From a virus: a DNA stretch of 20,120 bases. A program made the position numbers and the translations under genes. The notes below the pieces were generated by a model. It saw only the letters and a program-made list of their open reading frames with translations. It made no database searches and was not told the origin of the DNA. Below, piece after piece: positions 1-20,046 of the stretch (positions are counted from its first letter, which is position 1; the number at the start of each line of letters is the position of its first letter). The stretch covers positions 1 to 20,120 of the IMG/VR virus record IMGVR_UViG_3300030333_001117, one strand, 5' to 3'.

Positions 1-377
1 ATATTGTCCATTCTCGCAAATGCTAGGTTTCTTACTGTGGCAGTTCGTTTTTCTAAGTTAGCAAAATTAGCATTAACATCATGTGCTGCTATTAATGCTT
101 CAGCTGCTTTACCAGGATTACCAGCATAATTATCTAAATCAAATTTAATTCTTTTCCAGGCTGCTGCTTGTTTTAAAGTAACTCTTCTTTTGTGTGCAGC
201 CTCATATTTTAAAATATCAAAAGTTTCTTTTGCAGCTAAAGATTCTGCAGAAGTTTCTGGCATAGATTCTTTATATAACATTTTTAATTGCTGGTAAGTA
301 TCTAAAGCCTTAGCTCCTTGATCCTCAGTTATTAAGCCTTCTTTTTGTCCATTTATAACACAATTACGAAAGGTCAT
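1..377 (-). CDS. Unrecognised protein, N-terminal part (runs off the window)
   Basis: This is the first 125 codons of a gene that continues past base 1. It starts with ATG at 377, overlapping the stop of the upstream 1080-residue gene as ATGA, with GGAAGG a few bases upstream as a plausible ribosome-binding site. The visible part is hydrophilic, rich in Ala, Lys and Glu, and looks mostly alpha-helical; it has no signal peptide or recognisable catalytic motif. Following the internal virion proteins in one tight transcription unit, it is probably another ejected or internal virion protein, perhaps part of what gp16 does in T7. That role is inferred from position only. The reading frame is open to the window edge. 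Confidence 0.8.
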   Translation of the reverse strand, partial: MTFRNCVINGQKEGLITEDQGAKALDTYQQLKMLYKESMPETSAESLAAKETFDILKYEAAHKRRVTLKQAAAWKRIKFDLDNYAGNPGKAAEALIAAHDVNANFANLEKRTATVRNLAFARMDN

Positions 378-3300
378 ACGCAGCCTTCCAATCTTGATAG
401 CATAACTCTATCTTGTTCTATATCATCTAAAATTTGTTTTGGAGATTTGTAATCGGGTACTAATTCCCCGTTTTCGTCTATTCTTTGTCCGATAGGGATT
501 TCTGAAATGCTTTCGCTATCTCTTCTAGTGAACTCCCTGGGTATTCCGCTATCGCCTCGTTCTCCGCCTTCTCGTAATCGAAAATCTTGTTCTTGTAATA
601 AGTCTGATTTGATTTCTTCGATTCTTGGGTTTTGTCCGAAAGCTTGGTTGTTGTCGATTTTTGCGTAGCCATCTGCTTTACCTTTCAATTTATTATACGT
701 CATTATAGGTTTATTGCCAATACTTTTCATGTATCCAGGAGGTATTAATCTACCCGTGGTAATAAATCTGTCATACATTCTTTTTAAAGCATTACTTGGT
801 GTAACATTCATATTAATTAAGTTTATTTCATATCCAGCTTTTTTATATTTATTCATTAATTTAGAAATTTTATTAACGTCTTTGCCTACAGTTGGAATAA
901 TAATATTATAATTTTCTCTTATTGCTACATCCTCTAAAGCAGTAGCAATAGCTTGACTCTCTTTATGTACGGCATTTGCCCCAACTCCATCTTTATATTC
1001 GGGTAAAACTTTTTTAGCCTCATCTGCATCAATAATCATTGAACGAGTTTTTTGTCCTATTCTATTAGCTAGTGTGCTTTTACCACTAGCAGCTGGGCCT
1101 AATATAATGCTTACTTGTTTATTTTTTATTGCGGGATTGGAAGGAGGTATTAATTCATCACCTGTCCATGCTAATTTTTTTGCACTTTCAAATAATCTAG
1201 CTAAAGCCTCACCAGTTCCTTTAACAGTTTCCCCATTAAAATTATATGTTCTATTTAACCAATATTGTTCAGTTCCATAACCTTTTTTTAAATTAGTTAA
1301 AGGAATAGCCATGGCCTCATCTATAGCTTTTGTAACCGCTGGATGAGATTCTATAGTAGCCTCATCTGCTCCTTCATCTATAACCTTCTTTAAATCTTGT
1401 CTTAATTCAATATCTTTTTGAAAAGCCTCTTTTACTTCATGCTGCTCTTTAAATTGTGTTTCTAAACTATCCCCCTGGTTTTTTACTCCAGGGCCATTAA
1501 CGGGATCATCAAAATCATCTAACTGTTTTGGACTAGCTGCGACTTCAAAGCCTTCCTCTTCAACATCAATATTGCGTCTAATTGTGCCAAGGCTATCCCC
1601 GCTGATGTTGCCTCGTTGAATTTCTCGTCTGATAAGGTCAACAAAGTCTTGGGTTGCACCTTTTGAGTTACCTTCTTCTTTAAACCTTTTCGCTGCTTGA
1701 GTGAGGGCATCTGATATATCTCCTTTTCTATTTGCTAAACTCATTATTATTTGAGCTGCCATTGAATCATTAGCAACTCTTTTTTTATTAATATCTGTCT
1801 CTAATTTATTACCTTCCCGTTCTATTCTTGATTGGTTTTGTACTAAATTAGAAAATGTTATTTTATCTCTGCGTAATGTTTTTAAAGCATTATCTAAAAT
1901 AGAGGCTCTTTCTTTAAATAAACTTTCAGTTATTGTTTCTTCACCAAATAATGTCATATTAGTTGTAGGTGTAAATTCTACATTCATAGCTTGTCTAACT
2001 ATAGATTCTGCCTCAGTTACATTTTTTGGATTTGTTTCTTTTAATACTTTTATAATAGCAGAATGCTTATCTACATCTTGAACTAGCCTTCCAATTAAAG
2101 CTGCAAATCTTGGTTCAATAACTCCATTAACTACCATAGCAAAAGCATCATCATTTAGATTAGAAAGTTCCTGGGCCATTCTTACAAAGCTTGACGCTTG
2201 AGGTAAGTTAGCAGCTCTTTCTGGAGACATTCTTAATACTTTAGCAGCATCTATAGGACTACCAGTACCTTCAGCAATATTTTTCATAGCAGCTCTAATC
2301 ATAGCCTCATCAGCCGTTATGCCATCCGCCTCTCTTAAAACAAAACCAATTAATTTTGGATCTTGCCCGTCTTTTTGAGATAAAATTCTTTTGGCTAATC
2401 CTAATCTTTGATGTCCATCAACAACAACTTTTGAACCATCTAATTTTTCATAGACTATTAAAGTACCAGATTTTTCTGCCTCCCATTTCGTAATTCCTTG
2501 TAATCTCTTTGAAACACCAAATTTATCTCCACCTTCTTTGAATTGAAATTGTTTTGCATCTACAACTAAATCACCAGGTCTAAATGTTTGAAAATCATCT
2601 GGAGTTGTATTGTTCATAATCTCATTTATATTTTTTGGAGGTATAATAGTGGATACGGGTTTTTCTGTAATTTCTGCAGCTGCATCATTACCTACCATTC
2701 TTTTAATAGATTCATTTATTCGAGTTGTATGTTCGTGGTTAGCATCTAAAGGATTGTCTGATTTTAAAGGATTAGTATTAGCATCCTCTAAATCCATTTC
2801 AGCTTTAACAATTTCTGCCTCAATTTCTTTTGGTATTTTTACACCAGCATTTCGTAAAGCTCTAAATCCATTAATAGCACCTTTTAATGTTACTCCAAAC
2901 AATGCAGCACCAGCACCAGCTGTACCAGCCTCTAATAAAAATTCTTCCCAGGTATATTCTAATCCTACACTATTTCTCCACTCTGCGACTTGTGCGCTAC
3001 TATAAGTAGTTTCACCAACACCTATCATAAATTCTCTTAATGCTATTCTTAAAAATGAACCTTGAAAGGGAGCTATTAACATTGGTATAGCTATTTCTGG
3101 TGTTCTTGCTATATCCAATACTTCGTGCCTAGCTCCAGCTGCTAAAGAACCCCATATACTATCTTGCCTGGATGTAATATCTTGATATTCTGCTGCTGTA
3201 TTTTGTGCTAATTCTGCAGCTTTAAATTGTAAAAATTCTCTTGTTAGTAAAGGTTGATCTTTATAAATATCTGGATGATCTTTATAAACTTTATTTATTT

Positions 3301-3616
3301 CATCTAAACCTTCTTGAAAATAATTAATAAATTTACCAGAAATAGGATCAATGTTATCAGAAAATTGCATTGAACCTTTATAATATTCATCCCTAGACCA
3401 TCCAAAATTATGAATTTCTATTCCAGTTTTTTGTTTAATGTCTGCTATAATAGGTTCTAAAACTTCGGTAAATGACTCTTCTTTAGAATACATAGAGTCT
3501 ACAAATCTTCCGTATTTCTTTCCTACTTCATAATTTTCGCCAAAATCCGTAAACTCTCCAATAGATGGGGTAAAGTTTACTCGTTGTTTTGCATCTTTAT
3601 TACTTTCAAAAAACAT
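374..3616 (-). CDS. Large multidomain 'polyvalent'-type virion protein: DdrB-like ParB domain plus zeta-toxin-like kinase
   Basis: A 1080-residue protein. Residues 1-150 are helical and unrecognised. Residues 160-255 are hydrophobic and Gly/Ala-rich, like membrane-active parts of ejection proteins. Residues about 344-480 resemble the ParB/sulfiredoxin-like fold, with the motif VVVDGHQRLGLAKR (397-410) typical of the DdrB-ParB family. Residues about 835-985 resemble a zeta-toxin/PezT-type P-loop kinase: Walker A GPAASGKST (840-848), an acidic IIDADE (861-866) after strand 2, and an Arg-rich RMYDRFITTGRLIPP near 946-960. Known polyvalent proteins of phages and plasmids combine such modules and enter the host with the DNA to counter defences. 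The gene occupies the slot of T7 gene 16, right after the gp15-like gene (TAATG overlap), so I infer it is packaged and injected. I see no lytic transglycosylase motif. Two small ORFs overprint this gene (separate entries). Coding certain; domains likely; ejection inferred. Confidence 0.85.
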   Translation of the reverse strand: MFFESNKDAKQRVNFTPSIGEFTDFGENYEVGKKYGRFVDSMYSKEESFTEVLEPIIADIKQKTGIEIHNFGWSRDEYYKGSMQFSDNIDPISGKFINYFQEGLDEINKVYKDHPDIYKDQPLLTREFLQFKAAELAQNTAAEYQDITSRQDSIWGSLAAGARHEVLDIARTPEIAIPMLIAPFQGSFLRIALREFMIGVGETTYSSAQVAEWRNSVGLEYTWEEFLLEAGTAGAGAALFGVTLKGAINGFRALRNAGVKIPKEIEAEIVKAEMDLEDANTNPLKSDNPLDANHEHTTRINESIKRMVGNDAAAEITEKPVSTIIPPKNINEIMNNTTPDDFQTFRPGDLVVDAKQFQFKEGGDKFGVSKRLQGITKWEAEKSGTLIVYEKLDGSKVVVDGHQRLGLAKRILSQKDGQDPKLIGFVLREADGITADEAMIRAAMKNIAEGTGSPIDAAKVLRMSPERAANLPQASSFVRMAQELSNLNDDAFAMVVNGVIEPRFAALIGRLVQDVDKHSAIIKVLKETNPKNVTEAESIVRQAMNVEFTPTTNMTLFGEETITESLFKERASILDNALKTLRRDKITFSNLVQNQSRIEREGNKLETDINKKRVANDSMAAQIIMSLANRKGDISDALTQAAKRFKEEGNSKGATQDFVDLIRREIQRGNISGDSLGTIRRNIDVEEEGFEVAASPKQLDDFDDPVNGPGVKNQGDSLETQFKEQHEVKEAFQKDIELRQDLKKVIDEGADEATIESHPAVTKAIDEAMAIPLTNLKKGYGTEQYWLNRTYNFNGETVKGTGEALARLFESAKKLAWTGDELIPPSNPAIKNKQVSIILGPAASGKSTLANRIGQKTRSMIIDADEAKKVLPEYKDGVGANAVHKESQAIATALEDVAIRENYNIIIPTVGKDVNKISKLMNKYKKAGYEINLINMNVTPSNALKRMYDRFITTGRLIPPGYMKSIGNKPIMTYNKLKGKADGYAKIDNNQAFGQNPRIEEIKSDLLQEQDFRLREGGERGDSGIPREFTRRDSESISEIPIGQRIDENGELVPDYKSPKQILDDIEQDRVMLSRLEGCV
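478..672 (-). CDS. Candidate overprinted small gene (64 aa) inside the polyvalent gene
   Basis: An ATG ORF of 64 codons in the frame whose codons begin at the second base of the host gene's codons, overlapping residues about 982-1046, just after the kinase domain. AAAGG lies 8 bases before the ATG. The product is hydrophilic, starting MATQKST and ending LEEIAKAFQKSLSDKE, and looks like an ordinary soluble helical protein. The strongest hint is that the host gene's codons change where the ORF begins: upstream it uses AT-rich codons, then TAC, ATC, GAC, AAC, TTC, GGC and AGC appear together through the overlap and a little beyond. In this register the host's third base is the small ORF's second base, so such a shift is what dual coding would produce. 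No homolog recognised. An alternative is a recombined patch with different codon use. Confidence 0.4.
   Translation of the reverse strand: MATQKSTTTKLSDKTQESKKSNQTYYKNKIFDYEKAENEAIAEYPGSSLEEIAKAFQKSLSDKE
1519..1710 (-). CDS. Candidate overprinted small gene (63 aa) inside the polyvalent gene
   Basis: A 63-codon ATG ORF in the same shifted register as the one at 478-672, overlapping host residues about 636-700, a linker between the ParB-like and kinase domains. A good Shine-Dalgarno site, AAGGAG, ends 9 bases before the ATG. The product is basic (many Lys, including a Lys-rich N-terminal third) with a helical Ala/Leu-rich middle (TSAGIALAQLDAILM). In the host frame, codons switch abruptly at the ORF start from AT-ending ones to GCC, CTC, GAC, ATC, GGC, AGC, GGG, CGC and GTC, then return towards the usual AT-rich use after the stop. 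No family recognised. It could be a real overlapping gene, or a segment acquired from elsewhere. Confidence 0.4.
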   Translation of the reverse strand: MPSLKQRKGLKKKVTQKVQPKTLLTLSDEKFNEATSAGIALAQLDAILMLKRKALKSQLVQNS

Positions 3617-6507
3617 TATCTATTCCAAGAATTTGAATTAGCAGCTCTTCTTTTAGCTACTGTTTCTTGTAATCCTCTTAAATTTAACAATATAGGATCA
3701 CCATTAGCGTCTAACAAATATTGTGGATCAGATGAAAATGCTGGATAAAAACTTATCATTACTTCATCTGCATTTGCATTTGTAAAATGAAATCTCTCTT
3801 TTAACTTATTAAACTTTTCACCATCTAAATCTGTTGTATCAAATTGAACAACTTGGCCATTTCTTACATAATGTAATCTTTGATTATTGTTATTAGCTAA
3901 GAAATCAACTTCATTCATATCCTCAATTAATCTAGGAAAACCCTCAGCCCATATATTATTAGGGATCATTAAGTTATGTTCAGTACCACTTTGCTCTGGA
4001 TCAAATTCAATAATGCCTCCATATTTTTCACCATTAATATAAATAGCTCCCGCAACTTCTTGAAAAGTTTGTTCAAAAAGTTCTGGATCAAATTCATCTT
4101 TTTTTAAATTTATATGTCTTTGCTTATAAGCAGATTTCGTTACTTCTTGGATGTTGCCTATTAAATTTCCTGGGAAATAAGTACCTCCTATATAGGTCAT
4201 TATTTTTTCGTTCATCTCAGAAGAAGTTGTACCAGCCTCAATAAAAAATTCTTTGACTTGTTCTTTATCATATTCCAATCCTTGTAAAGAATCTTTTACA
4301 ATGTCTTGATTTCCGTAAAAACTTAATGTTCCTAAATGAGCAAGGTTTTGGCCTATTTTCCCATTACTATGTATTTGTTCCCAAACAGCACTTGTATTTA
4401 TGTCAAAATTTTCTCTTACTCTATTTATTAAAACAATTTTATTATTTAGGTCAGCTCGGCTAAAAGCATTAATTAAAGCAGTAGATTCATCTTGAGTTAA
4501 ATATTGTGGAGTTATATTCATTTCAGCACTCCATCCATTTACCCATTCAATTCTATTTTTAACGGATTGTGCATCCATGTTTCCATCATCTGTAAATGCT
4601 ATTTCTGGAAAATCCTCTCTAGTCTTTTTGGCCCATCCAATAGGATCAGATTCTAAAGCATTAATCATATTCTTTTTTAAAGATTGTAAACCTTCTACTA
4701 ATTTTAAAGCATCCTCATCAGCACCTTTTTTCTGTAAAACTTTATCAATACTGTCTATAACTCTACCTAATTCTATAACAGACATATCCTCTGCTGCATC
4801 TAATTGGGTTACTTGAGATATAACAGTTGCTAATTTATCTCTTATTTCGTCATCTTTATAACGAGTTAATATATCTGAAAGTTCTTTTTGTAATTCATCA
4901 TTTAATGGATAACCTTCACTTAAAACTTCCATCATTTCGGTTAATTTAGCATCCTCATCAGCTCTTTCAGTTTCTTTTCTATTTAAAATATTTTGTAAAT
5001 TTATTAATAAATCTTGTTGATACTCGCTAACTTCATCTGAATTATCTATAGACGCTTGTATATCGTTAATTTCTCCTTGCAAAGCCTCTGCACTCATATC
5101 ATTAGCTCTTTGCAAAACTTTAGTAGAGTTAATTAGCATAGTTGTTTTTTCAATCATTTCCTGGTCGCCAACTTCTTCTGCATCTGCTAGTAATTTTTCT
5201 AAATGATTAAATCCAGGATTTCTTCCTTTACTTACTATTTTTTCTATTGAAGAAAATCTATTACTTAAATCAGCCTCTTCATCTACTCTATCACTTCTTA
5301 TGTCTGCCAATATTTTTTCTAAATTTTCTACAATTTCTTTTTGTTCTGGTAATACTTCTTCAGAGGCAGTTTCAGTTTTTTGCATCTCATTAATAATTAT
5401 TTGTAACTCTTCTGGACTTTTTAACCTGGCTGGTCTGTAATAATTTTCATAATTATATTCTAATTGTTCTATTGCCATATAAAGATCACCATAACCCGCT
5501 GCCTCTGCCTCTTTTTTTAGTTCCGTTAATTGAGAACCAGGATTCAATCCATCAACAACAATTTCTTCAATTTTGCTAAACTTGCCATCTAAAGATTTGT
5601 GCAACGCTGTAGTTCTTTTATCAATACTGTTTATTTTAGTATTCATTTCTCCATATAAAGTTTTTTGTGAGGCCTCATCTAAACCACTTGCCAATCCTTG
5701 TCTTTTGTCAAAATCATTTTTAAATTCTTCAGCAAAAGCAATTTTATCCGTAGCTCTTTCAAACCCTCCACGGACTCTTGCTTTATTTGCTCTAATTCTC
5801 ATATTAATTACTGCAGCAGAAATTTCTTTTTGAGTTAAATCTGAGCCTTCCATAAAACCCATTAAACTTGCTATTTCAGCATTTAAGTTATCATTAAATT
5901 GTTCTAAAGTTATATTTTGTCTACCCATTAACTCTATATTATTTAAACGTTCATCTACGCCTAAATATGTAGCTGTTCTCAAATCGTCTTTTTGGTCTTT
6001 CATCCAATCCTCTGTATAATCTAAATACACAGAATTTGATAACCTGGTTAATGTTTCATTCAAGGTAGCTGCAGATAAAGAATCCATATTACCTAAAGCA
6101 TTAGAAAATCCAGCATTTATATTATCTAATTTAGTTCTTAATAATTCTGGATCAGCCTTATTATTTTTCCACTCTAATAAAACCTTACCCATTTCATTTC
6201 GGGCCTCAGTTTCAATTTGTGCAGAGGCAACTTTTACAGCTGCTCCATAAGCATACTGGTCAAAAACAGTATCCTGGCCCTTGGATTGTTTCATAGCTTT
6301 TTGAGGATTCATAGCTCCATATTGTTGTCCTTCTAGTTTTGCTTTTTGTTCTAATTTACCGAATGCAAAATTCATTATTTGATTGGCACTTTGAGCCATA
6401 GCAGACGCACCTTTAGCTTGTTCTCTTAAATCAGCTCTATCAACATTTACGGGCCTGGCTAAACTTGCCCTATTACTTGAATCATAAGTTGGGTATCTTT
6501 GTGCCAT
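3616..6507 (-). CDS. Internal virion / ejection protein, T7 gp15-like by position
   Basis: A 963-residue, largely hydrophilic and acidic, alpha-helical protein with no signal peptide. It starts directly after the stop of the gp14-like gene (no gap), and its TAA shares one base with the next ATG. Residues 309-613 hold three degenerate tandem repeats of about 100 residues (separate entry). The flanking region 1-300 is helical and Ala/Gln/Lys-rich; 620-963 looks more globular. No catalytic motif is evident. In T7-like phages the long protein after gp14 is gp15, which forms part of the internal core and is ejected to build the periplasmic conduit for DNA entry. That role is inferred from gene order, length and composition, because internal core proteins diverge too quickly for reading by eye to establish homology. 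Confidence 0.75.
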   Translation of the reverse strand: MAQRYPTYDSSNRASLARPVNVDRADLREQAKGASAMAQSANQIMNFAFGKLEQKAKLEGQQYGAMNPQKAMKQSKGQDTVFDQYAYGAAVKVASAQIETEARNEMGKVLLEWKNNKADPELLRTKLDNINAGFSNALGNMDSLSAATLNETLTRLSNSVYLDYTEDWMKDQKDDLRTATYLGVDERLNNIELMGRQNITLEQFNDNLNAEIASLMGFMEGSDLTQKEISAAVINMRIRANKARVRGGFERATDKIAFAEEFKNDFDKRQGLASGLDEASQKTLYGEMNTKINSIDKRTTALHKSLDGKFSKIEEIVVDGLNPGSQLTELKKEAEAAGYGDLYMAIEQLEYNYENYYRPARLKSPEELQIIINEMQKTETASEEVLPEQKEIVENLEKILADIRSDRVDEEADLSNRFSSIEKIVSKGRNPGFNHLEKLLADAEEVGDQEMIEKTTMLINSTKVLQRANDMSAEALQGEINDIQASIDNSDEVSEYQQDLLINLQNILNRKETERADEDAKLTEMMEVLSEGYPLNDELQKELSDILTRYKDDEIRDKLATVISQVTQLDAAEDMSVIELGRVIDSIDKVLQKKGADEDALKLVEGLQSLKKNMINALESDPIGWAKKTREDFPEIAFTDDGNMDAQSVKNRIEWVNGWSAEMNITPQYLTQDESTALINAFSRADLNNKIVLINRVRENFDINTSAVWEQIHSNGKIGQNLAHLGTLSFYGNQDIVKDSLQGLEYDKEQVKEFFIEAGTTSSEMNEKIMTYIGGTYFPGNLIGNIQEVTKSAYKQRHINLKKDEFDPELFEQTFQEVAGAIYINGEKYGGIIEFDPEQSGTEHNLMIPNNIWAEGFPRLIEDMNEVDFLANNNNQRLHYVRNGQVVQFDTTDLDGEKFNKLKERFHFTNANADEVMISFYPAFSSDPQYLLDANGDPILLNLRGLQETVAKRRAANSNSWNR
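4669..5583 (-). repeat. Three tandem protein repeats of about 100 residues within the gp15-like gene
   Basis: The repeats are visible at protein level only: residues 309-412, 417-520 and 521-613 (about 5272-5583, 4948-5259 and 4669-4947). Repeats 1 and 2 open alike, KFSKIEEIVVDGLNPG and RFSSIEKIVSKGRNPG; repeat 3 opens KLTEMMEVLSEGYP. A second shared block reads KSPEELQIIINEMQ, MSAEALQGEINDIQ and MSVIELGRVIDSID. Units 1 and 2 end with an acidic VDEEA / ADEDA, and unit 3 has GADEDA near its end. The pattern suggests old internal duplications building a long helical rod. Confidence 0.65.
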
Positions 6508-12111: not shown

Positions 12112-13664
12112 ACAGCCTCTTCTGTTACTTGCTCTTCTTCAGCTGCCATAGCTTGTTGAGCCATTTCTGCCATTTGTGCCATCATAGTTTTTCTTTCCTC
12201 TTTTGAATTTAGTATTTTACCAGGAACTCCTAATTTATCGGCTATATAATCTAAAGCCTCATCCTGGTTTAAAGCCACTTGTCCTATTGGCCCAATACCT
12301 TGAGTAATTTGAATAAACTTCATAACATTCTCTAATTCATCTAAACTTTGTGCCTGGGCCAGAGGTGATACGGGAACAACTTTAACTGCCTGGCCATCTA
12401 CTTTTAATGGCATATCAATTAAGTTTTGTTCGTCCATAACAACTAATACCCTGGAAACAATAGGCAACATAGCCTCAGTTATTAACCTTCCAAATGCAGA
12501 ACCCATATTTTGAGATAGTTCTTTCATACGTTGCACTATTTCAGTAGCACTCCTGGCACTCATATTATCGGGTGGGAGGGAGTCGTCCAGGAGTACCTTT
12601 TTAATATTATCCCTTAAATCTTGTATTACTAATTGAGCAACATCAAAATCACTTGCTCTTTGTAAAGGTTTTAAACTTTCTCCTTGAGGGCCGCCATTTC
12701 TTGCTACGGGTATTATTGCTCCTGGTTGAATGCGAACATTTTGCGGATTTAAAACTCCATCATCTGCAGCCGTATAAACACCAGCTATTGCTAAACTTGC
12801 ATTTTTTAAAATTAATTCTTTTGTTTTATTTAATGTTTTTACGTCAGCAATACAGCTTATTAATGGGCCTCTACCCATAACCTCGCCACTTACTTTCATA
12901 TACCGACTAACTACCCAAGGACTAGATTTTAAAACTCTATAAACAATTTCTTCCTTCTTTTTAACATCTATTACATGATAGCAATATATGTCCTCTTCCT
13001 TTTTATAAATAGTAGCCTCTAATAAATCTATTTCATCTTCTGGTTTATCTTTTATTATGTCTTGTAAATCTGAATGAATATTAGCATCTGGCCATTGTCT
13101 TTCGATAGCCTCGGCTCGGACTCTATGTTTTCTATACACATTATCTATTGTGCCGTTTGGCCCTTCTTCTAAACTTACCAGGTATTGTGGTACAGCCTCA
13201 AAACGAATAGGGGTTACTTCGTCTCCAGGCTGTATCAACATAACAGCTGTTCCTACGCATAAATCTAATAAAAATTCAGACATAGCCAAATCAAATGATG
13301 ATTGACGTATAACAGCAAACATTTTTTCTGTATAAATATCTAAAGCAATTTGTAATTGTTGAGGATCATCCACTTCTCTAATTGCATCCTCACCAGCAAC
13401 TAAAGCACACCATTTCCTATATGGCGGAAATAAAGCTGATTGTATTCTGTTAGCAAATCTTTGAGTCGCATGAATAGCCGTTGAGTCAAATACTCTGGAA
13501 CTTTTATCCTGGGCGGGAACTCGACTTTCATAATGTCCACCATATAAATTTCTTTGTGGCAAACCATATTCATAACACTCTTCATAAATAGATCGCCATT
13601 GATCTTTACGATTATTAGCTTTATCAGCTCTTTTTAAAACTTGAATCGGGGTAAGTTTTTCCAT
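12108..13664 (-). CDS. Portal protein (head-tail connector)
   Basis: A 518-residue protein that matches podoviral head-tail connectors in length and pattern. Near the N-terminus are RKDQWRSIYEECYEYGLP and, at about 59-75, the FDSTAIHATQRFANRIQSALFPP block typical of T7-like portals. A helical stem region and LPPDNMSARSATEIVQRMKE (about 365-384) follow, with a Gln/Met/Ala/Glu-rich tail. Twelve copies would form the ring at the capsid vertex through which TerL pumps DNA and to which tail tubular protein A attaches. The start is one base after the upstream stop, and the stop overlaps the Bbp19-like start. Confidence 0.93.
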   Translation of the reverse strand: MEKLTPIQVLKRADKANNRKDQWRSIYEECYEYGLPQRNLYGGHYESRVPAQDKSSRVFDSTAIHATQRFANRIQSALFPPYRKWCALVAGEDAIREVDDPQQLQIALDIYTEKMFAVIRQSSFDLAMSEFLLDLCVGTAVMLIQPGDEVTPIRFEAVPQYLVSLEEGPNGTIDNVYRKHRVRAEAIERQWPDANIHSDLQDIIKDKPEDEIDLLEATIYKKEEDIYCYHVIDVKKKEEIVYRVLKSSPWVVSRYMKVSGEVMGRGPLISCIADVKTLNKTKELILKNASLAIAGVYTAADDGVLNPQNVRIQPGAIIPVARNGGPQGESLKPLQRASDFDVAQLVIQDLRDNIKKVLLDDSLPPDNMSARSATEIVQRMKELSQNMGSAFGRLITEAMLPIVSRVLVVMDEQNLIDMPLKVDGQAVKVVPVSPLAQAQSLDELENVMKFIQITQGIGPIGQVALNQDEALDYIADKLGVPGKILNSKEERKTMMAQMAEMAQQAMAAEEEQVTEEAV

Positions 13665-17611: not shown

Positions 17612-18099
17612 TCATTATCTTTCCTTTCTTTTACTTTTACAACTTTGGCAGATTTAATCTGCTGCTTAAATTCCAGGACTTTGGCTGGTACAAACTTAAC
17701 CAGTTCTTCCACATTGAAAACTACTCCCTGGTGTAAATAGTTTTTGGCATCTATTTCTCCATTATGAATAATCAACATATGTCCGCTGCTATGTTTTACC
17801 TTCCAGACATTATCCTCCGTCAACGGAATCATTCTGGAGGTATAAGTGATTTTATCAAATATCTTTTCCAGATAGTTCCAAGCATTAATCATTTTTTGTC
17901 CTTCGGTGAAAATAGCAACATTATCTTTTGAATCTATTGCCTTAAACAATTTACTTTGCTGCTTTTCAAATTTGTCCTGGACATTTTGCGGTGCATTTTC
18001 AATTAAGACATCCACACCATGTTTTTTTTCTTTTTGTTTTCGAATCAAATCTACTTGTTCAATCATTTTTAAAGCTTTATCATTTATCCTATTTTTCAC
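17608..18099 (-). CDS. Unrecognised protein in the replication block
   Basis: I do not recognise this protein. I choose GTG 18099 as the start (163 residues) because AGGGAGGA (18107-18114) lies 7 bases upstream. Earlier in-frame starts, ATG 18132 and TTG 18159 (183 residues), have no good ribosome-binding site. The product begins with a helical, Lys/Glu-rich half (KALKMIEQVDLIRKQKEKK, then DKFEKQQSKLFKAIDSKD), includes NAWNYLEKIFDKITYTSRMIP, and ends with a compact beta-like part (WKVKHSSGHMLIIHNGEI) and a basic helix. It has no membrane segment. Lying between primase-helicase and the winged-helix gene, it may be a replication accessory factor; that is inference. Confidence 0.8.
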   Translation of the reverse strand: MKNRINDKALKMIEQVDLIRKQKEKKHGVDVLIENAPQNVQDKFEKQQSKLFKAIDSKDNVAIFTEGQKMINAWNYLEKIFDKITYTSRMIPLTEDNVWKVKHSSGHMLIIHNGEIDAKNYLHQGVVFNVEELVKFVPAKVLEFKQQIKSAKVVKVKERKDNE

Positions 18100-18205
18100 A
18101 GACAAATCCTCCCTGGACAAATGGACGGACATCCCTAGGGATATGTCCTGTCCGTCCAAAGTCCAAATACCGCCCGTTTTTCTGTCCGCAACTTTTGTCC
18201 GTCAT
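18089..18205 (-). CDS. Possible tiny ORF (38 aa) bridging primase and the next gene
   Basis: ATG 18205 overlaps the primase-helicase stop as ATGA, the junction type used by many genes here, and the ORF ends inside the start of the following gene (11-base overlap with GTG 18099). The 38 residues run from MTDKSCGQKNG to FVQGGFVCEK, with two Cys and many Arg/Gly. If translated it could couple the two flanking genes. The same bases carry the TGTCC repeat cluster, so the frame may simply be open by chance. Confidence 0.25.
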   Translation of the reverse strand: MTDKSCGQKNGRYLDFGRTGHIPRDVRPFVQGGFVCEK

Positions 18206-18275
18206 TCTGTAACCCCTTGTTTTCTGCCGTTTTCCGCCTGGACAACTTGTCCGTCCGCATTTTGTCCGTTTGTCC
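18115..18275. repeat. Cluster of TGTCC/GGACA repeats around a palindrome: candidate origin or operator
   Basis: Ten copies of TGTCC or its complement lie in 161 bases: TGTCC at 18144, 18149, 18183, 18196, 18248, 18263 and 18271; GGACA at 18115, 18127 and 18240. Several extend to TGTCCGTCC (18149-18157, 18248-18256) or its inverse GGACGGACA (18123-18131). In the middle ATCCCTAGGGAT (18131-18142) is a perfect palindrome flanked by GGACAT and ATGTCC. Chance would give far less than one copy in this length. The cluster spans the end of the primase-helicase gene and the short gap after it. Iterons near replication genes are typical of origins; an operator is the alternative. Confidence 0.6.
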
Positions 18276-20046
18276 AGGCAAACTCTCGCCACTTTCCTAT
18301 AAAACCACCATCTAAAAGAGCTTTTGCCGACCTGGTAAATGCTTTTCTTTTGGCATCTTCAGACTCAGAATTAGTAATTGTCATGTTATAAGCATAACGT
18401 TTCCACATATCCATTGTGGTCGCTTTTCGTGGTACTCGATCACTTGGAGCAGATACTCCAGCCTCATCTATAGCAATTTGTAAAGCTTTAAATACAGTTC
18501 TCTGGGCCTGGCTCATACTCCGTGTTTTTTGACCAGCTGCATCCGATAATTGTAAAATGAGACTTGTTTCGCTTTCGCCAATATCCAAGTCATCCAATTG
18601 GATACTATCTGTAGTAAACCAGGTAATATCCTCAGCCTCGGCATCTTTTTGCTTTTCTGTAGTCAACGACAACATTTTTTCCTGGCGATCTATCCGCAAA
18701 GATACATCTACGGCTCCTATCATAGCCGTTGAGCCTCTAGCTCCTCTATCCCGATCTTTACCACTATGATGAATAGGAACAACACAGCAGCCGAATTGCT
18801 GCTTGATAGTATCCATAGCTTTTATAGCTTGTCCCATATCCTGGGCCGAGTTTTCATCTCCCGTCATACATCTGGCCACAGTATCAAATACCACCATTTT
18901 GACATCTTTTGCACACATCTGAATTGTTGTAATAAGGTTTTCTATTTCCTGGTTTTCTAATAATCCCACGGCCTGGGGAATAATATGTAACGGAGCTTGA
19001 GGCTGCAGCTGGTAATGTTTATGCCAAGCTTGTAATCTCTTCCTTAATCCGCCAACACCTTCCCCCGCCACATAAACCACGGAACCTTGTTCAATAGCCT
19101 TATTGTGCCATTCTTTACCATGAGCAATATGTAACGCCATGTCCAGGGCCATAAATGTTTTTCCACTACCTGGTGGCCCATAAATCATAGCCATACTATT
19201 ACAAGGGACATAATCCTGGATGAGCCAGGGAGTTGGGGGCATGGATATAACCTGGGCCATAGATAATAATGGAATAGGAGGTTGTTCTTTTGTTTCGTGT
19301 GTAGCTGCTACTAAATCTAATAGTTCCTGGACAGAATGCTTTTGTAGCCAATCGTAAGAATCTTGTTTTGGTAAGAGTCCTGGAAGTTCGCAAACCTTAA
19401 CACTTTTAGCAATACCCTGGAGAGAATTAGCCACTATTCTGGCATGATTTTTTCCAGGTTCGTCATTATCTGGAAGGATAAAAACGTCCTTATCTTTTAA
19501 ATATTTACTATGTTCATCTGTCCACTTCCCAGAGCCTCCAGAGTTACAAGTTGCCGCCAAACCATGCTTTTCGAGGTTAAGTACGTCTTTTTCACCCTCT
19601 ACAATCGCCACCTGGTGCGCTTTGGCTATGTTTGGTAACCTATAGGGTACGGGAGAAATTCCGTGTAAATTCCACACAGTTTTTCCCTTTTCGACTCTTC
19701 TTTGCCGAAAAGTTTTAGGTTCATAACGTACTACCTGGTATAATATGTTTCCTTCTGTATCGGTATAATCATAGACAGTATTTTCTTGTTTTTTACTTGG
19801 CTGCGGCAAGATTCCGAACTCGTCCAGGAACCCTTGGATAGAGCCATTGAGACTTGGCATTTCCTTTTTTACCAAGTCCACAACTCCGCCACCTTCGTTA
19901 TTCTCGAAGTCGTACCAAGTACCCTGGGATAAATTTACAGCTTTTGAGCCGTGATTACCCCAGCGTAACTCAGTTGTTGTACGGGAAGAGGGTTCACCCC
20001 AGAAATGTTTGGCGACCTCTTCCATATGTCTGGAAATATCGTTCAT
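18202..20046 (-). CDS. Primase-helicase (TOPRIM plus RepA/DnaB-type ATPase)
   Basis: A 614-residue replication enzyme. Residues 1-80 resemble the primase zinc-ribbon region (SQGTWYDFENNEGGGVVDLV) but lack its cysteines. A TOPRIM domain follows with VEGEKD (149-154) and LPDNDEPG (191-198), the acidic residues that bind metal for primer synthesis. The ATPase domain has Walker A GPPGSGKT (290-297), VYVAGEG (324-330), Walker B MVVFD (384-388) and VPIHHSGKDRDRGARGS (423-439), typical of RepA-like hexameric helicases. Residues about 510-590 look like a winged helix. The protein should unwind DNA and make primers at the phage fork. ATG 20046 overlaps the upstream stop as ATGA. Confidence 0.93.
   Translation of the reverse strand: MNDISRHMEEVAKHFWGEPSSRTTTELRWGNHGSKAVNLSQGTWYDFENNEGGGVVDLVKKEMPSLNGSIQGFLDEFGILPQPSKKQENTVYDYTDTEGNILYQVVRYEPKTFRQRRVEKGKTVWNLHGISPVPYRLPNIAKAHQVAIVEGEKDVLNLEKHGLAATCNSGGSGKWTDEHSKYLKDKDVFILPDNDEPGKNHARIVANSLQGIAKSVKVCELPGLLPKQDSYDWLQKHSVQELLDLVAATHETKEQPPIPLLSMAQVISMPPTPWLIQDYVPCNSMAMIYGPPGSGKTFMALDMALHIAHGKEWHNKAIEQGSVVYVAGEGVGGLRKRLQAWHKHYQLQPQAPLHIIPQAVGLLENQEIENLITTIQMCAKDVKMVVFDTVARCMTGDENSAQDMGQAIKAMDTIKQQFGCCVVPIHHSGKDRDRGARGSTAMIGAVDVSLRIDRQEKMLSLTTEKQKDAEAEDITWFTTDSIQLDDLDIGESETSLILQLSDAAGQKTRSMSQAQRTVFKALQIAIDEAGVSAPSDRVPRKATTMDMWKRYAYNMTITNSESEDAKRKAFTRSAKALLDGGFIGKWREFAWTNGQNADGQVVQAENGRKQGVTE

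Follow-up and report, generated by a model that had tools for sequence, protein, structure and literature searches.

Candidate small genes nested in the +1 frame of a polyvalent protein gene of a tailed phage

The window analyzed here, meaning the whole stretch of DNA under study, is a 20,120-base IMG/VR virus record whose main genes lie on the minus strand. Its terminase is 63% identical to that of Methylophilales phage MEP301; because of the gene order and the terminase, the source is probably a podovirus-type tailed phage, and probably a marine one. A late gene encoding a protein of 1080 residues, hereafter the outer gene, contains two small open reading frames, ORF A and ORF B, each lying wholly inside it and in a different frame (Table 1).

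Table 1. Features of the outer gene and of the two reading frames inside it (window coordinates)
Feature	Position	Strand	Basis
Outer gene, 1080-aa polyvalent protein	374..3616	(-)	ORF, Pfam and PHROG domains, full-length homologues in L005 and L006
ParB-like domain, outer residues 328–650	1667..2635	(-)	phrog_10691 E 8.5e-60, phrog_21 E 1.4e-28
Probable relic of ancestral ORF A start	1747..1770	(-)	Nucleotide alignment of homologues
Shine-Dalgarno AAGGAG of ORF A, 9 bases before ATG	1720..1725	(-)	AAGGAGG in L005 and L006
ORF A, predicted nested +1-frame gene, 63 aa	1519..1710 (ATG 1710, stop ends 1519)	(-)	Comparative sequence
Conserved predicted helix of ORF A, residues 23–62	1525..1644	(-)	AlphaFold2; lowest synonymous ratio, outer codons 676–689
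Zeta-toxin-type P-loop domain, outer residues 831–965	722..1126	(-)	Pfam PF06414 (Zeta_toxin) E 6.6e-17
Shine-Dalgarno-like GAAAGG of ORF B, 8 bases before ATG	681..686	(-)	
ORF B, second predicted nested +1-frame gene, 64 aa	478..672	(-)	Homologues, synonymous ratio

The first annotated domain of the outer protein matches phrog_10691 and the C-terminal part of phrog_21, with no match in Pfam. It contains the motif VVDGHQRLGLAKRI, which appears ParB/sulfiredoxin-like when read by eye. In the zeta-toxin-type domain, the sequence still shows a Walker A motif, GPAASGKS. The outer gene thus combines several conflict-type domains, the ParB label being assigned by eye, in a late-gene protein adjoining virion genes. 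Published polyvalent proteins, multidomain late phage proteins thought to be delivered together with the DNA, are likewise long, adjoin virion genes and carry ParB-like and zeta-type domains (PMC5512222). By this precedent and by its position after the tail genes, the outer protein may also be ejected with the phage DNA.

Homologues with different C-terminal effectors share the final ~42 residues of the outer protein (...ILDDIEQDRVMLSRLEGCV; window 374–500, minus strand), which represent a possible packaging or delivery tail. Alignment of the neighboring 963-aa protein (window 3616–6507, minus strand) to loci L005 and L006 gives two stretches that overlap and are shifted, a pattern suggestive of internal repeats whose copy number differs.

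ORF A had been noticed in a reading of the DNA letters alone (the sequence-only reading), which described an ATG-started ORF of 63 codons in a shifted frame, an AAGGAG nine bases upstream, and an abrupt switch in the codon use of the outer gene. The ORF and its ribosome site are both present, the ORF lies in the +1 frame of the 1080-aa gene, and the register is as claimed, with the third base of the outer codon serving as the second base of the ORF A codon. The codon switch is also real: outer GC3 across ORF A is 0.33, against 0.14 expected (z +4.5) from permutation of the outer gene's own synonymous codons, with the outer protein and the codon counts kept. The +1 frame across ORF A stayed open in 0 of 5000 such permutations.

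Full-length homologues of the outer protein occur in L005 and L006 at 63–64% identity. The ORF A product is 92 and 89% identical in these loci, compared with ~64% for the outer protein, and ORF B is 66 and 55% identical. A fall in synonymous variation across the overlap, on which the sequence-only reading had staked its proposal, is found in both comparisons: outer codons specifying the same residue are changed in 1 of 54 and 3 of 55 cases inside ORF A, and in 178 of 568 and 184 of 587 cases outside both ORFs. Within the 3′ part of ORF A, the changes altering the outer protein sit on the third base of ORF A codons. DNA around ORF A is 70–78% identical among these close relatives. A chance +1 ORF in the portal gene (13400–13585), used as a negative control, is 46 and 43% identical, while the portal protein itself is 83–84% identical; being much less conserved than its outer frame, it was rejected as a further nested gene.

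Elsewhere in the window, a 67-aa GTG-started ORF (18089–18292, minus strand) overlaps the 3′ end of a 614-aa gene and the start of a 183-aa ORF. Its identity is 84% in L010 and 77% in L006, and it is possibly another overlapping gene.

Deeper relatives, mostly on metagenomic contigs, were fetched with a five-sequence domain alignment, yielding 80 viral loci (the best 80 of 439) and 35 genome loci. Single-protein queries with the outer protein and with its 963-aa neighbor found none or one relative, and the ORF A query and a three-row outer alignment returned L005 and L006 alone. The outer domains of the relatives are often just 45–50% identical; the +1 frame keeps a motif like LSDEQLxxAISxGxxLAMLDALSMLxRK, followed by a stop, at a place where the outer frame varies. 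Carriers show no stops through the shifted frame, which bears out the second comparative expectation of the earlier reading. The profile places ORF A in ~100 distinct outer genes, with a few doubtful cases among the remotest ones. A core profile trained without the distant members and tested against 50 codon-permuted versions of each sequence scored L122, L117, L118, L125 and phage SI2 (L019) above all 50 of their permuted versions, gave uncertain results for L123, L126 and L119, and did not place prophages lacking the ORF clearly above theirs.

In the domain tree, all 34 representatives of one well-supported clade possess ORF A, and lineages further away are mixed. Among relatives of the ParB-like domain, many lack ORF A, so the domain can do without it at least in some cases. 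When 2.9 million viral contigs were scanned for an exact peptide pattern, the ORF A motif appeared in 41 loci: L052, already known to carry it nested, and 40 new ones, all inside a longer open outer frame. The outer domain was identified in 39 of the new loci, the remaining one (L165) being a fragment of 1.15 kb. No stand-alone copy of ORF A was found among the pattern matches or the fetched loci. The one named phage found with ORF A is SI2, whose record leaves the nested ORF unannotated. This phage, listed as 'Dunaliella viridis virus SI2' (L019/L191, HQ332136), is classed within Caudoviricetes (tailed phages), and ORF A is nested in its related gene; we doubt the algal host assigned to it.

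Most homologues start ORF A 19–20 codons upstream of the ATG used in the window, producing a protein of 82–95 aa that often begins with MAKRSRSSK. This common start coincides with the outer codons for Asp-Gly (GAT GGC) or Asn-Asp (AAT GAC) and is preceded by AAGG, AGGAG or AAGGAG inside an Arg/Lys-rich stretch of the outer protein. The window, L005 and L006 have stops in the upstream part and use a separate ribosome site and ATG (63 aa); this second site was also assigned to L093, L118, L123 and L125. Where most homologues start ORF A, the window retains an ATG-started run of 7 codons closed by a stop (MIQWQLK), and its lineage uses a newer start. Carriers in this survey, which were chosen for their open frame, begin with an in-frame ATG, and in nearly every case a Shine-Dalgarno match lies 7–10 bases upstream. 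Own start signals are kept in homologues of both ORF A and ORF B.

Synonymous change in the outer frame was followed in 33 homologue pairs, in which each sequence was used once and which are not strictly independent, relative to the upstream region of the same pair. The ratio is ~1.0 up to outer codon 600 and falls to 0.37 at codons 613–627, a dip coinciding with the upstream start region; it then stays near 0.6 to about codon 655, reaches 0.10 at codons 676–689 (z -12) and is back at ~1.0 immediately after the stop of ORF A. Outside the core, differences are dominated by the third codon position (0.38–0.43 at p3). Within the ORF A core they are dominated by the first position (0.256/0.167/0.154), which is the third position of ORF A. 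Single-base changes that alter the outer protein and are silent in ORF A stand to the reverse class as 76:52 in the core and as 40:1301 in a control stretch. ORF A thus shows both fewer outer synonymous changes and a codon-position flip, and the constraint on its core is no weaker than that on the outer protein.

These patterns bear on whether the region acts as a DNA or RNA element (a regulatory structure or packaging signal) or is a recombination patch, with the open frame being incidental. The very high local DNA identity in the close trio would fit such an origin, and some suppressed stretches elsewhere, such as L055 codons 999–1049, which have no ATG-started ORF with a ribosome site, may be patches of this kind. 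However, the codon-position flip and the 76:52 against 40:1301 ratios argue against both an element and recombination, as the changes concentrate on the third base of +1 codons and the core favors +1-silent changes. The +1 protein motif is also retained at low DNA identity across deep relatives, and no Rfam match was found. We consider this explanation largely refuted by the flip and highly improbable.

Programmed +1 frameshifting, which would yield a truncated outer protein ending in a different C-terminal tail, and no separate small protein, was raised when the ATGs looked unconserved: most homologues do not share the position of the window ATG, and upstream of it the +1 frame frequently stays open. 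It was dropped once an upstream start accompanied by a ribosome site had come to light. Carriers have an ATG and, nearly all, a ribosome site; the two shift jointly, and this favors internal initiation over frameshifting. In addition, stops interrupt the +1 frame directly ahead of the start in the window, L005 and L006, the drop in synonymous change sets in at the long form's ribosome site, and inspection of the homologue alignment by eye revealed no common slippery motif. Frameshifting is therefore a very unlikely source of the conserved frame. Judging from the sequence comparisons, ORF A is very probably a genuine nested +1-frame protein-coding gene, initiated internally at its own Shine-Dalgarno and ATG.

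ORF B, missed by the sequence-only reading, lies in the same frame as ORF A, directly after the zeta-toxin domain, and shows a codon switch as well (GC3 z +4.5, T3 z -5.2). Its frame is open in 2% of permutations, and its openness taken by itself is weaker evidence; ORF A and ORF B were both open in 0 of 5000. The 27 distinct ORF B sequences found measure 58–76 aa, start mostly at the outer motif Ala-Asp-Gly-Tyr, have a Shine-Dalgarno match in nearly all cases and mostly share the core [FLY]D[YL][ED]xxExxA ... LL. The synonymous ratio (17 pairs) is 0.47–0.67 over outer codons 980–1039 and 1.08 after the stop; reduced synonymous change is clear, and the codon-position flip is weaker than for ORF A.

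A profile (HMM) detected ORF B in 34 zeta hosts, and diverged versions were recognized by eye in L090 and L185. It is present in all 36 clade homologues with a fully covered zeta module and in 0 of 84 without zeta, an exclusivity that follows in part from the overlap of ORF B with the module end. Five further zeta hosts are truncated at the end of a contig or locus, and two distant ones, L146 and L149, do not have ORF B. No named phage carrying ORF B was found. The comparisons support the view that ORF A and ORF B are both coding, under selection and equipped with their own start signals.

Candidates for a third nested gene in non-zeta hosts (L055 codons 999–1049, L158/L181 codons 773–846 and others) were rejected: no ATG-started ORF with a ribosome site spans these suppressed stretches, and they are therefore taken as recombination. 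At outer codons 999–1049 of L055 (also L052, L063 and L064), synonymous suppression between pairs is strong (z -4.0); it probably reflects recent recombination, or a non-coding element.

AlphaFold2 leaves the first 22 residues of ORF A unstructured and predicts one 40-residue helix thereafter (pLDDT 92–97 for residues 31–60). The median net charge of ORF A is +9, and that of the first 25 residues of the long form is +7. By this model, the product is probably a protein with a basic, disordered N-terminus and one long conserved helix. For the hidden small basic protein proposed earlier, the conserved protein-coding overprint is strongly supported, but the basic part is not the best conserved one: the window's lineage no longer has the stretch of 19 residues that is the most basic part of the longer form, and the conserved core is the helix. 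The roles suggested with that proposal, an immunity partner, a modulator or an anti-defence peptide, are putative. The ORF B model comprises two helices at low confidence.

ORF A and ORF B show no homology to each other and have no membrane segment; no cysteine occurs in 73 ORF A and 26 ORF B sequences. Neither gave a convincing match in Pfam, PHROGs or PDB sequences, and fold searches (BFVD for ORF A, PDB for ORF B) yielded no convincing match either. ORF A has no similarity to known virion proteins. With respect to known antitoxins, the window ORF B has no Pfam match, the 27 members have no PHROG match, and no PDB match was found.

In phage phiX174, gene E lies out of frame within gene D, on the same mRNA and with its own ribosome site, an arrangement that ORF A and ORF B appear to share. 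Gene E, however, encodes a membrane lysis protein of a tiny ssDNA phage, whereas the products described here have no membrane segment and belong to a tailed dsDNA phage. A closer relationship between nested and outer product is known for phage lambda Rz1, an embedded o-spanin encoded within Rz, as the two proteins bind each other (PMC6139136). Like ORF A and ORF B, Rz1 is a small gene that sits entirely within a larger phage gene in the +1 frame, has a start of its own and usually goes unannotated. Unlike Rz1, ORF A and ORF B have no cysteine, and so no lipobox; and unlike Rz, the outer gene here is a large multidomain late protein with two nested genes. A text search of the polyvalent protein study (PMC5512222) yielded nothing on overlaps, and a literature search, covering sources other than subscription journals and preprints, returned no report of nested genes in polyvalent proteins.

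ORF A and ORF B would very probably be translated from their own start signals on the mRNA shared with the outer gene. Each begins at the last conserved stretch of a domain (ParB-like for ORF A, zeta for ORF B) and continues into the following linker. Each product may act as a dedicated small partner, either a chaperone or a neutralizer, of the domain it nests in; made together with that domain, it could keep the large protein inert or soluble until it is packaged and delivered. This role is favored because the nested genes lie at domain ends and because the nested Rz1 product binds Rz (PMC6139136). With position and this precedent as its grounds, we put it forward as a tentative possibility. 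A further reading, in which delivered effector modules carry their own antidote or chaperone gene in a second frame (ORF A for the ParB-like domain, ORF B for zeta), seems rather unlikely to us; if it is true, an effector module could not be acquired or recombined without its neutralizer.

The main rival to the partner role accepts ORF A (and ORF B) as real and assigns them to small virion or assembly proteins, for example an oligomerizing helix joining, or packaged with, the ejected proteins. In its favor are the late structural gene block, the single long predicted helix, the basic tail (median charge +7) and the retention of ORF A whatever the C-terminal effector. The basic tail, however, is in part imposed by the outer frame and has disappeared from the window's lineage, and similarity to known virion proteins is absent. 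We regard a structural or co-packaged role as possible, if somewhat doubtful.

Since ORF A is kept with many different C-terminal effectors, with and without zeta, it is unlikely to be the immunity protein of any one of them, including zeta; for zeta, ORF B is the candidate instead. Zeta kinases are toxic when free, and a small antitoxin blocks them at the ATP site (PMC3062530); the epsilon/zeta pair resembles ORF B and its domain in that a zeta-type kinase domain is accompanied by a small protein gene. ORF B could accordingly be an epsilon-like antitoxin, with the role of ORF A being unrelated; this overlaps with the partner reading. Its exclusivity to zeta modules, its location directly after the domain, its small and partly helical predicted product, and the retained Walker A motif of the window's zeta domain are all consistent with this. 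Unlike epsilon, ORF B lies inside the reading frame of the toxin gene rather than beside it and has no sequence relation to epsilon or any other family; its model is of low confidence and has no PDB fold match, the inhibition and the toxicity of the window's zeta domain are putative, and the exclusivity is weak evidence, as ORF B overlaps the module's own DNA. We consider the antitoxin function rather unlikely as it stands.

Coming back to the partner role, the position of ORF A and ORF B at domain ends offers a testable proposal on how phages handle their own delivered effectors. The bias of gene callers against same-strand nested ORFs has been noted for embedded spanins (PMC6139136). Both families are absent from PHROGs and Pfam, and ORF A from the SI2 annotation, although ~100 related genes retain ORF A and ~35 retain ORF B. 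As all representatives of a deep clade retain ORF A and it is nevertheless uncatalogued, phage protein catalogues miss conserved genes, and a codon-switch scan followed by comparative tests provides a recipe for finding more of them.
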